DNA of 38,631 nucleotides from Bacteroidota bacterium (GTDB taxonomy: Bacteria > Bacteroidota > Bacteroidia > Bacteroidales > UBA12077): positions 1 to 38,631 of the forward strand of contig JAIFLC010000102.1 of NCBI GenBank assembly GCA_020049295.1, written 5' to 3'. A program made the translations under genes and the position numbers. Below are positions 1 through 33,510 of this stretch, piece after piece. Under the pieces are notes generated by a model. It saw only the letters and a list, made by a program, of their open reading frames with translations. It was not told the DNA's origin and did no database searches. Every line of letters starts with the position of its first letter. The first letter of the stretch is position 1.

Positions 1-158
1 ACCTTATTGCATCAACAGATATGGTTGCTGCCGATGCTGCTGCTGCAAAAATTTTTGGTATGGAACCCGATCAGGTTAATTATATTCAATTAGCTAACGA
101 TATGGGTGTTGGACAAATGGATCTTTCCAAGCTTACTATTAGCCGAATAAAAGTTTAG
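1..158 (+). CDS. DUF362 domain protein, C-terminal end (5' partial)
   Basis: An open frame enters from the left edge (first full codon at base 3) and stops with TAG at 156-158, giving about 51 residues. The tail has the alanine-rich run STDMVAADAAAAKIFG followed by a short segment ending LSKLTISRIKV, which resembles the C-terminus of DUF362 proteins. DUF362 proteins are often found beside polyferredoxins and are thought to take part in iron-sulfur electron transfer, but their reaction is not established. The next gene starts 4 bp after this stop, so the two are almost certainly co-transcribed. The family call rests on a short tail and could be wrong. Confidence 0.6.
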   Translation, partial: LIASTDMVAADAAAAKIFGMEPDQVNYIQLANDMGVGQMDLSKLTISRIKV

Positions 159-162
159 TATA

Positions 163-1731
163 ATGAATCAATCTGTGTTAAAGAAAATACGGGTTGTTTT
201 TTCAATACTGTATTTGATTTTAATTACTTGTCTTTTTGTTGATTTTACAGGATTAATTCCATCATCAGTATATAAATCAATTACTTTTCTGCAGTTTTTA
301 CCATCGCTCTTGCAGTTTAAAGCATTATTCACAATTTCGTCAATTGGATTTATTGTGGTAATCGTATTAACCGTTTTCTTTGGGAGAGTTTATTGTTCTT
401 TTATATGTCCATTGGGTATTTTGCAAGATATTATCAGTTTTATTACAAAGAAAATCCGAAGATTAAAACAATACAGATATAAGTATTTAAAATCCTTTAG
501 TTTTATACGTTACAGTTTCCTTGGACTCTTTATTGCTGGTTTGTTATCAGGATATACATTAATTCTTTCTATACTCGATCCATATAGTATTTATGGCCGA
601 ATTGCTTCAGGGGTTTTCCGCAAATCAATTGTCGAAACCAATAATTTAGTTGTTTCAGGTCTACAACAAATCAATGTGTATTCATTATATCATGTTGATT
701 TAAAGCCAGAATACTGGACCATTTTAGCTGTTTCATTATTCTTTTTGCTTATAATCATTTTGTTTTCAGCTTTCAGAGGTCGGTTGTATTGCAATACCAT
801 TTGCCCTGTTGGAGCATTTCTTGGGTTGATTTCTAAATTTTCAGTTTTTAAGATAGAACTGGATAAAAACTCATGCACTGGATGTCATCTTTGTGTCCGA
901 TCTTGTAAAGCTGGTTGTATTGATTGTGAAACCAAACAAATAGATACCGAGAGATGTGTAGCGTGTTTTAATTGTTTAACCGTTTGCAAAGAAAATGGCA
1001 TTCATTATAAGTTATCATCGAGAAAAGAACTAACCAAAGGCGAACCCATACCAGTAAATACCGGAAGTAATCGTCGTCAGTTTATAGCTATAACTGCACT
1101 TATCTTAGCTGCTGGAGTTAAAAAGTTAAAAGCACAACACGAGGTTAAAGATACAGCAACAAAACCAACAGGACGAGATATTCCTGTTTCTCCTCCGGGA
1201 TCAAAATCAGTTGATCAATTTAACTCATCATGTACGGCTTGCCATTTATGTATTAGCGTATGTCCAACCCATGTATTGCAACCATCGTATACTGATTATG
1301 GTTTAATTGGATTTATGCAACCCGTAATGGACTATAAAGCAGGATTTTGTAATTACGAATGTAAAAAATGCACTGAAATATGCCCAACTGGAGCAATAAA
1401 ACCAATTGAGCTTGAAAATAAAAAGCTTACGCAGATTGGAATAGCTCATTTTGTTCGCAGAAACTGTATTGTTCGTACCGAAAGAACCGACTGCGGTGCA
1501 TGTGCCGAACATTGTCCGACAAAAGCCGTAACGATGGTTCCATGGAGGGATGGATTGGTTATTCCCGAAGTTACTCCCGAAATATGCATTGGTTGTGGTG
1601 CTTGTGAATATGCTTGTCCAACAACACCTTATAAAGCAATTTACGTTGAAGGTAATGCTGAACATGCAATGGCAGGGGAACCCGATAAACAAAAACAAAA
1701 TATAATAGTGGAAGATGATTTTCCGTTTTAA
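163..1731 (+). CDS. NapH-NapG-like fusion: membrane 4Fe-4S polyferredoxin
   Basis: A 522-aa membrane iron-sulfur protein predicted to pass electrons between the quinone pool or membrane and a periplasmic acceptor. The N-terminal half is NapH/YccM-like, with several TM helices and the paired motifs CSFICPLG (about residue 78) and CNTICPVG (about 208). Two ferredoxin-type clusters follow (CTGCHLCVRSC and CVACFNC). After them comes a twin-arginine segment, SNRRQF (RR304-305), and a hydrophobic stretch like a Tat signal. The C-terminal half is NapG-like with four Cys clusters: CTACHLCISVC, CNYECKKCTEIC, DCGACAEHC and CIGCGACEYAC. In nitrate reductase systems NapH and NapG are separate proteins; here they are one chain. 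No nap catalytic gene is in view, so the physiological acceptor is unknown. The start is the ATG 4 bp after the DUF362 stop. Confidence 0.8.
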   Translation: MNQSVLKKIRVVFSILYLILITCLFVDFTGLIPSSVYKSITFLQFLPSLLQFKALFTISSIGFIVVIVLTVFFGRVYCSFICPLGILQDIISFITKKIRRLKQYRYKYLKSFSFIRYSFLGLFIAGLLSGYTLILSILDPYSIYGRIASGVFRKSIVETNNLVVSGLQQINVYSLYHVDLKPEYWTILAVSLFFLLIIILFSAFRGRLYCNTICPVGAFLGLISKFSVFKIELDKNSCTGCHLCVRSCKAGCIDCETKQIDTERCVACFNCLTVCKENGIHYKLSSRKELTKGEPIPVNTGSNRRQFIAITALILAAGVKKLKAQHEVKDTATKPTGRDIPVSPPGSKSVDQFNSSCTACHLCISVCPTHVLQPSYTDYGLIGFMQPVMDYKAGFCNYECKKCTEICPTGAIKPIELENKKLTQIGIAHFVRRNCIVRTERTDCGACAEHCPTKAVTMVPWRDGLVIPEVTPEICIGCGACEYACPTTPYKAIYVEGNAEHAMAGEPDKQKQNIIVEDDFPF

Positions 1732-1808: not shown

Positions 1809-2528
1809 ATGAAAAGGTATCAAATCATAATATGGATTACATTATTTGCTATTTCGATGGGTATATTCGAAGGTGCTGTGGTGGTTTACATCCGTGCATT
1901 GTATTATCCCGAAGGTTTTGATTTTCCTCTAAAATTAATGAGTAACCAAGTGGTAATTACTGAACTAATTCGCGAATTAGCATCATTAATAATGTTGCTT
2001 TCAGTTGGGATGCTTGCAGGCAAGAATTTCTCTCAACGATTTGCCTGGTTTATTTATTCTTTCGCAGTTTGGGATATTGTGTATTATATTTTTCTGTATC
2101 TGATATTAGGTTGGCCCGAAAGCATTTTTACATGGGATGTTTTATTCTTATTGCCAGTTACCTGGACAGGACCAGTAATTGCTCCAATAATAATTTCGTT
2201 ATTGATGATTCTTCTTGCAATAGTGATTCATAAACAAAATACTAAAACAAACAATCAATTTAAAGTTGTTAAAAAGGAATGGATAATACTAGTTTTTGGG
2301 TCATTGGTTGTTTTTACTTCTTTCATCTGGGATTACTGCAGATTTATTATTCAGAATATTGGTTCATTTGGAAATAAAGGACAATCATTTTCAAAAAGAA
2401 TGGTTGAATTATCATTTCAATACATTCCTGATCGATTTCCCTGGTTGATTTTTATAGTAGGTATTATAATAATTGGAGCTGGAATATTTTTTGTAAATCG
2501 AAGAAATAAAAAAAGCGCAACGAATTAG
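1809..2528 (+). CDS. Conserved multi-pass membrane protein, function unknown
   Basis: A 239-aa integral membrane protein with about six or seven hydrophobic helices: residues 5-28, 53-72, 78-102, 108-140 (one or two helices), 155-175 and 213-235. The first helix and loop contain GIFEGAVVVYIRALYYPEGF, a segment I associate with an uncharacterised conserved bacterial family. I see no catalytic or cofactor motif. It lies 77 bp downstream of the NapH/NapG-like gene on the same strand, so it may belong to that operon, but the gap contains a tandem repeat rather than a tight junction. Its stop codon falls inside the terminator hairpin at 2512-2537. I do not assign a function. Confidence 0.7.
   Translation: MKRYQIIIWITLFAISMGIFEGAVVVYIRALYYPEGFDFPLKLMSNQVVITELIRELASLIMLLSVGMLAGKNFSQRFAWFIYSFAVWDIVYYIFLYLILGWPESIFTWDVLFLLPVTWTGPVIAPIIISLLMILLAIVIHKQNTKTNNQFKVVKKEWIILVFGSLVVFTSFIWDYCRFIIQNIGSFGNKGQSFSKRMVELSFQYIPDRFPWLIFIVGIIIIGAGIFFVNRRNKKSATN

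Positions 2529-30085: not shown

Positions 30086-33510
<3,425 letters not shown>

Follow-up and report, generated by a model that had tools for sequence, protein, structure and literature searches.

The fusion and its described relatives

The quinol dehydrogenase NapH/NapG combines CxxxCP pairs, two inner and four outer 4Fe-4S sites and a periplasmic half routed by the twin-arginine translocation (Tat) system, and its two parts are separate subunits that occur with NapA. NapH–NapG chains encoded as one protein, the polytopic polyferredoxin (PFD) family, were described by Tooke et al. in 2017, with a twin arginine before the fifth transmembrane (TM) helix, TM5, and insertion first by Sec and then by Tat (PMC5449189). 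In the accessible text of that paper, reporters built on the MLMS-1 PFD (Q1NSB0) assign export of the part after TM5 to Tat and find membrane insertion to be Tat-independent; a weakly hydrophobic TM5 and the positive charges following it favour release by Sec, homologues occur in other phyla, and no partner is named in that text beyond the comparison with NapGH. Here we analyse a NapH–NapG fusion polyferredoxin of 522 amino acids (aa), encoded at positions 163-1731 (+) of a 38,631-nucleotide stretch of a Bacteroidota bacterium (order Bacteroidales, UBA12077), together with its neighbours and relatives. The stretch, hereafter the window, is the whole contig JAIFLC010000102.1 (C151) of draft genome G000 (GCA_020049295.1; 2.96 Mb, 209 contigs, 79% complete).

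Two other systems are comparable at the level of their export signals. The actinobacterial Rieske protein Sco2149 likewise depends on Sec first and Tat second for its membrane insertion, and its Fe-S domain follows an internal Tat segment; proteins of this type have a Rieske domain, usually three helices and unrelated clusters, and the available text on them describes no cleavage. The Bradyrhizobium cytochrome b/c1 precursor FbcH also has an internal export signal and is cut into two respiratory subunits; however, FbcH uses the Sec route, its products are haem proteins and its cleavage is established, whereas for the fusion studied here cleavage is only predicted.

The protein resembles the PFD of Tooke et al. 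in having NapH and NapG in one chain, an internal twin arginine and a weakly hydrophobic TM5. An earlier note on this DNA had proposed the same architecture from the letters; novelty of the architecture is not supported, as Tooke et al. described it together with reporters of Tat dependence for the MLMS-1 protein. That PFD has, in the same text, seven clusters (three inside and four outside), whereas six canonical sites are found here, two plus four; the four conserved Cys of the CxxxCP motifs might form a third inner site. The joint further differs in reading Lys-Arg (KR) in some rows and in being followed by a cleavage-like site in many, whereas the described protein appears uncut. Compared with NapH/NapG, the present protein is the product of one gene, falls below the NCBIfam cut-offs and has other partners. 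While the kind of fusion has been known since 2017, the recurring partners, the possible cleavage after Tat export and the KR joint are what the present survey adds; if cleavage is real, many family members would be precursors cut in two after Tat export.

We read the fusion, with a probability of roughly 70%, as a membrane-bound electron relay of NapH-plus-NapG type, made as a single precursor that would serve an exported partner whose gene lies just upstream. The fusion itself, its conserved clusters, its conserved Tat-like joint and the recurring partner come directly out of the computational comparison. From these we infer the export, the cleavage, the quinone link, the direction of electrons, the cofactor and the role of DUF362, which would fit together as follows. 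Sec would insert the first four helices so that both ends stay in the cytoplasm, where the NapG half would fold and acquire its four clusters before the internal R/K-R segment passes it to Tat. In this clade a Tat-exported DUF362 protein would then be the counterpart of the periplasmic half in electron exchange, and the menaquinone pool that of the NapH half; electrons would most likely move from quinol outward, as in NapGH. Cutting at A324|Q325 would yield two mature proteins.

The comparison rests on an alignment of 86 rows, comprising the window and 85 further loci, partial rows included (G054 and G395 give three rows each, G398 two). Removed before counting were L001 (the window itself), L075 (the locus of L036), L074 (a 65-aa C-terminal remnant open reading frame (ORF) in G012), L002-L006 (weak matches of ferredoxin type in G000) and L007-L035 (shorter copies of loci already in the set); partial fusion matches in G025, G030, G035 and G049 lie outside the locus set, and the L042 row has a 258-aa upstream extension in the same frame. 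Counting the window's own genome in each set, fusion matches occur in 29 of 59 near genomes (E 1e-30; some partial) and in 45 of 392 panel genomes (E 1e-80). The closest named relative is Bacteroidetes bacterium GWF2_33_16 (79% identity). The remnant in G012 (C75, near 32769-33074) sits within a long contig and suggests gene decay.

The reading frame is open and intact, and Pfam and NCBIfam profiles make residues ~1-290 NapH-like and the last ~180 NapG-like. Fer4_5 matches in two stretches (E 1.3e-22), accompanied by other Fer4 families, and the scores against NapH-type models (TIGR02163, 83.1 bits with a cut-off of 213.05; PRK09477, 79.7 with a cut-off of 234) and NapG-type models (TIGR00397, 51.2 with a cut-off of 178.85; PRK09476, 58.9 with a cut-off of 269) all remain below cut-off. 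Among solved structures (PDB) the matches, in the best 60 of 64, are ferredoxin modules. All features of the gene lie on the forward strand. The NapH-like membrane part (187-777) has four predicted TM helices at residues ~9-31, 55-77, 114-135 and 184-205, with predicted insertion energies of -2.41, -2.28, -1.21 and -4.14, and is predicted to be N-in from its charges by the positive-inside rule. The two CxxxCP motifs are at residues 78-83 (394-411) and 210-215 (790-807), and are followed by two ferredoxin-type 4Fe-4S sites, predicted to be cytoplasmic, within residues 238-275 (874-987; Cx2Cx2Cx3C at 238-248 and 265-275). The NapG-like part contributes four more sites within residues 357-485 (1231-1617), predicted to be periplasmic, at 357-367, 396-407, 435-451 and 475-485; both groups of sites were placed by Pfam and alignment. 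All 28 Cys of the two CxxxCP motifs and the six cluster sites are conserved in every row that covers them. The composition that the earlier note had proposed from the letters, with NapH-like and NapG-like parts, two CxxxCP motifs and two plus four cluster sites, is therefore confirmed by Pfam, by the motifs and by the conserved Cys.

Several observations weigh against the relay reading. The quinone link rests on likeness to NapGH, whose curated models the fusion does not reach, and we know of no redox cofactor for DUF362. AlphaFold models were too poor for fold searches (mean pLDDT 37.2 over 11 fusion rows and 47.2 over 6 DUF362 rows). TatC occurs in nearly all genomes (391 of 392 in the panel and 56 of 59 near ones, the window's own included), so its co-occurrence with the fusion has no test power.

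The internal Tat-like joint and possible cleavage

Between the two parts, the window's protein carries SNRRQF (residues 302-307) with the internal twin arginine R304-R305 (1072-1077), after which comes QFIAITALILAAGVKKLKAQ. This weakly hydrophobic, Tat-like segment with a basic end, QFIAITALILAAGVKKLK (1078-1131), closes with KKLK and has a predicted insertion energy of +2.14, compared with -2.41 for TM1; the value falls within the range of the N-terminal Tat signals of the DUF362 partners. The same holds across the family, where energies for TM1 to TM5 could be calculated in 80 of the 86 rows, six being too short: the segment after the Arg pair is above 0 in 80/80, and TM1 and TM2 are below 0 in 80/80. 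Positive energy for TM5 together with negative energies for TM1 and TM2 fits the rule of Sec-to-Tat release given by Tooke et al. The suggestion that the joint keeps a buried Tat-like signal, SNRRQF plus a hydrophobic stretch, is upheld by its position, by its weak hydrophobicity and by the invariance of R305.

The Arg pair reads RR in 53 of the 86 rows and KR in 33, while the second Arg (R305) is invariant in all 86; in a phylogeny from which the joint was left out, the pair switches between RR and KR at least 14 times, and the second Arg has never changed. N-terminal signals of the DUF362 proteins from the same loci show xRRx in 57 of 60 cases, RK in two and an unclear start in one, with no KR. 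A review states that lysine substitution is poorly tolerated in Tat signals (PMC7317946), and the KR joints are in this respect unexpected for Tat and count against the proposed export. Since KR occurs in 33 internal joints and in none of the N-terminal DUF362 signals, it is tolerated at the internal position, and a membrane-tethered signal may need less than the full RR. The KR rows would also suit an explanation without export, in which neither half leaves the cytoplasm and the RR segment is hydrophobic and helical by chance. We consider this very improbable, as the second Arg is invariant despite the repeated switching of its neighbour, tat genes adjoin the fusion in some loci and the partner proteins carry Tat motifs.

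In L042-L045 and L082 the fusion gene is immediately preceded by tatA and tatC, which in L065 are found ~4 kb downstream of it (confirmed by Pfam in L042, L082 and L065), and a tatA-like ORF occurs alone ~2-6 kb from the fusion in L081 and L063. The loci L042-L045 belong to four RUG genomes, presumably from the rumen, to judge by the name. The tatA–tatC pairs at 5928-7004 of L042 and 6951-7957 of L082, and those of L043-L045, might represent a dedicated Tat system. Long insertions in the cytoplasmic linker ahead of a KR motif are found in L050, L052, L071 and L072, the longest in L071.

The Tat-like segment of the window's protein is followed by a putative signal-peptidase I site, A324|Q325 (KA|Q; 1132-1137), recognised by the pattern [AVSTLIGCM]x[AGS]|Q at 13-30 aa past the Arg pair (the Q-type site). 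The pattern is found in 56 of the 86 rows, the window included, compared with 859 of 34,684 control windows elsewhere in the same proteins (2.5%) and 1,775 of 17,200 shuffled joints (10%). In the 56 rows with a site, A prevails at position -1, Q stands at +1 and -3 is usually L, A, I, S or V, although much of this is dictated by the pattern itself; the segment before the small residue and Gln is often 16-22 residues long. The same idiom was found in 60 of 114 ORFs of these loci with an N-terminal signal-like start and in 31 of 410 other ORFs, and on account of this enrichment it is taken to be a common form of signal-peptidase I site here. At the internal joint the site occurs in either partner clade, with a frequency close to that of the N-terminal signal-like ORFs of the same loci. 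Four additional fusions from named bacteria, three from Parabacteroides distasonis (one of DUF362 type and two of AKR type, with one of the three incomplete) and one from Bacteroides finegoldii, all have the site when inspected by eye. Because a signal-peptidase-like site follows the Tat segment in so many rows, two mature chains are possible, and we put the odds that the window's protein is cut into NapH and NapG parts at about even.

The other outcome is an uncleaved TM5 anchor, leaving all six clusters on one five-helix polypeptide, as Tooke et al. described for MLMS-1; its chances appear only slightly short of even. The PFD-TMD reporter was found in E. coli membranes close to its theoretical mass, indicating that it is uncut there (PMC5449189). 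The Q-type site is absent from 30 of the 86 rows, 26 of which match only when the pattern is relaxed to a form that chance often produces, and one clade, made up of L108, L109, L111 and L113-L120, has it in 0 of 11 rows, although its own N-terminal signals show it in 8 of 17 cases and its other ORFs in 7 of 60. All of these speak against cleavage. A whole chain is, however, harder to reconcile with a site that recurs across both partner clades at the N-terminal rate, and with a TM5 segment whose hydrophobicity does not exceed that of the DUF362 N-terminal Tat signals: over all 86 rows the median energy is +2.81 with a site and +2.31 without, compared with +2.89 for 57 DUF362 signals. Two individual loci point the same way, namely L110, which has a lipobox (LNSC) at the cleavage position, and L121, where the NapH and NapG halves are separate, overlapping ORFs and the NapG ORF begins at this position with MDKSRREAIKK, the Tat motif of the joint. 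The idea that rows without a site have a more hydrophobic anchor in its place finds no support in the same medians (p 0.18).

The proposal of the earlier note that the chain crosses the membrane holds in that the Tat-like segment very probably spans it, with two clusters inside and four outside, whereas the picture of a compact wire on a single chain has become doubtful in view of the 56 rows with a cleavage-like site and the one lipobox. The lipobox of L110 (5557-7164) suggests that its NapG half may have become a lipoprotein; DUF362 is unlinked in that genome. In L121 (5589-9971) the naturally split fusion is followed by larC, larE and larB.

Recurring, probably exported partners of the fusion

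Directly upstream of the fusion gene, at 3-158 (+) and 4 nt from it, lie the last 51 codons and stop of a gene cut by the contig end; only 51 residues of its product are present because the window begins there. The fragment has no Pfam match alone, but shares 96% identity with the C-terminal end of the DUF362 protein encoded in the nearest relative (L036), which scores 182.1 bits against PF04015 (cut-off 24), starts with a plain Tat signal (MKRRDFIRK) and is likewise encoded 4 nt from the fusion gene. Through this orthologue, the upstream neighbour that the earlier note had called a DUF362 protein can be accepted as one.

The pairing recurs. DUF362 is encoded upstream and on the same strand in 60 of the 85 loci, at a distance of at most 65 nt or overlapping in 54 of the 60, and 57 of the 60 proteins have xRRx near the N-terminus. 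In 16 of the 85 loci DUF362 is missing and an aldo/keto reductase (AKR) is encoded downstream, with an N-terminal twin-arginine motif in 14 of the 16 and with C-terminal Fe-S motifs in both of the AKRs tested (n=2). The remaining 9 loci have neither partner; three of them are at a contig end, four are of the RUG tat-operon type, and the others are L061 and L110. Flavodoxin-like or FMN-reductase-like genes adjoin reductase-type fusions in L068 (5526-6095) and L069 (5104-5976), and tandem aldo/keto reductase genes stand beside another in L135 (5508-8456).

At the level of whole genomes, the DUF362 subfamily (E 1e-50) is present in 43 of the 392 panel genomes, 42 of which also have the fusion. 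The 43rd, G072, has a divergent 524-aa polyferredoxin ORF beside its DUF362 gene, lacking both the FPF tail and the Q-type site, and in G218 DUF362 and the fusion are both present but unlinked. Fusion genomes lacking the DUF362 subfamily are G398 and G431, whose fusions belong to the reductase type, and G000, whose assembly contains just the fragment.

The type of partner is mirrored in the C-terminus of the fusion, which in the window ends in DDFPF (1714-1728, +), a tail kept in DUF362-linked rows and absent from AKR-linked ones. The form F[PGA]F is found in 58 of 58 complete DUF362-linked rows and in the window, and in 0 of 16 AKR-linked rows, G072 being the exception. Partner type switches only once on the tree, and for that reason no p-value is attached to the association. 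The tail is a candidate docking site.

A nitrate reductase partner finds no support: NapA (TIGR01706) was over cut-off in 0 of 40 fusion carriers searched, the window's own genome included, and in 1 of 14 control genomes, in agreement with the earlier note, which had seen no nitrate reductase gene nearby. Weaker matches to the NapA model in 22 of the 40 carriers are read as other molybdoenzymes. The acceptor, left open in that note, can now be sought more narrowly in a recurring partner that carries a Tat signal, which in this clade is DUF362. Among solved structures there was no relative of DUF362, the only match (E 1.8) being a chance one, and the closest NCBIfam model, Npun_F2552, scores 82.4 bits with a cut-off of 500. 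Among the open-licence papers listed, none came up that describes DUF362 alongside NapGH-type fusions or lar genes.

Nickel-pincer genes and a small membrane protein

Genes for the nickel-pincer cofactor are neighbours of some DUF362 genes. LarC adjoins the DUF362 pair in 10 of the 60 DUF362 loci. In 8 of the 10, LarE and LarB are present as well, and the two exceptions, L039 and L070, are at contig ends; the lar families were confirmed by profile on L053 and L121. In nine of the loci larC is divergent from DUF362, and in L121 it lies directly downstream of NapG. DUF362 and LarA belong to one Pfam clan (PMC11770544). DUF362 shares with the LarA and LarB/LarC/LarE pathway its clan and the neighbourhood of lar genes in 10 loci; what sets the DUF362 protein apart from LarA here is its Tat signal and its pairing with a polyferredoxin.

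Outside the loci, LarC is over cut-off in 15 of the 43 DUF362 genomes and in 11 of the 349 others, a comparison that ignores kinship. Of the 15 panel genomes with LarC as well as DUF362, 11 have a match to Lar_N, the LarA family, which was not found in G124, G155, G230, G298 and G452, all of which carry LarC and DUF362. In LarC genomes without the DUF362 subfamily, 5 of 11 also lack a Lar_N match, which makes other users of the cofactor likely. In one survey larA is missing from about 15% of genomes despite the presence of larB, larE and larC, and in cyanobacteria a cofactor user with a fold distinct from LarA is expected (PMC11796402). From its clan and neighbourhood, DUF362 is a candidate non-LarA nickel-pincer enzyme, and G124, where it is encoded beside larC, larE and larB and no LarA match was found, offers a concrete candidate for the open question of genomes without larA.

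Several results speak against this link to the cofactor. Nine of the lar-linked rows form exactly one clade (support 85), the tenth being L121, so that lar adjacency may have only two origins. LarC is missing from 28 of the 43 DUF362 genomes and was found in none of 20 genomes searched from the genus of the window, G000 among them, though several are incomplete. A shallow profile comparison of DUF362 with LarA gave no more similarity than an unrelated control.

The clan membership and the lar genes beside 10 DUF362 loci would also favour electron flow in the opposite direction, given that the LarA cofactor transiently takes a hydride from its substrate: DUF362 or AKR would oxidise a periplasmic substrate and pass electrons through the NapG half and the NapH half to menaquinone. 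We regard inward flow as rather unlikely, since NapGH, the characterised analogue, is a quinol dehydrogenase (PMC5449189) and since an exported AKR with Fe-S motifs would be easier to explain as a receiver of electrons.

The outward relay is retained as the more likely direction. A second component of the DUF362 loci may be relevant to the cofactor. An uncharacterised membrane protein of ~170 aa, here called A4, is encoded divergently from DUF362 in 21 loci (for example L036, 4084-4584), at the place that larC takes elsewhere; no locus has both. An alignment of the 21 loci contains 21 invariant columns, and no credible match was found in Pfam (best E 0.0019, in two of 21 members), nor any in NCBIfam (one member searched) or the PDB. 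In 80 genomes searched, none of the 21 fusion genomes with LarC has A4, whereas 5 carriers without LarC have it at a place other than the locus, and among non-carriers 2 of 31 have it. Within the window's genus, the five other carriers have A4 and lack LarC, whereas the four carriers of another genus in the same family have LarC and lack A4. Mutual exclusion of A4 and LarC (0 of 64 rows with both) was tried as a formal association and is not significant once kinship is considered, leaving 1 to 2 informative independent pairs on supported branches. A4 might be an importer of the cofactor or of a precursor, or else a sign that a different cofactor is used.

These elements can be assembled into an extended scheme, which we consider distinctly improbable as a whole. 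DUF362 would be a non-LarA nickel-pincer enzyme that is loaded with its cofactor in the cytoplasm, exported in folded form by Tat and wired to quinone through a NapH–NapG precursor split by signal peptidase, and in lineages without LarB, LarC and LarE, such as the window's genus, A4 would replace the lar genes and could import the cofactor or its precursor.

Downstream of the fusion, the window encodes at 1809-2528 (+) a membrane protein of 239 aa that belongs to no Pfam family and that adjoins the fusion in L036 too.

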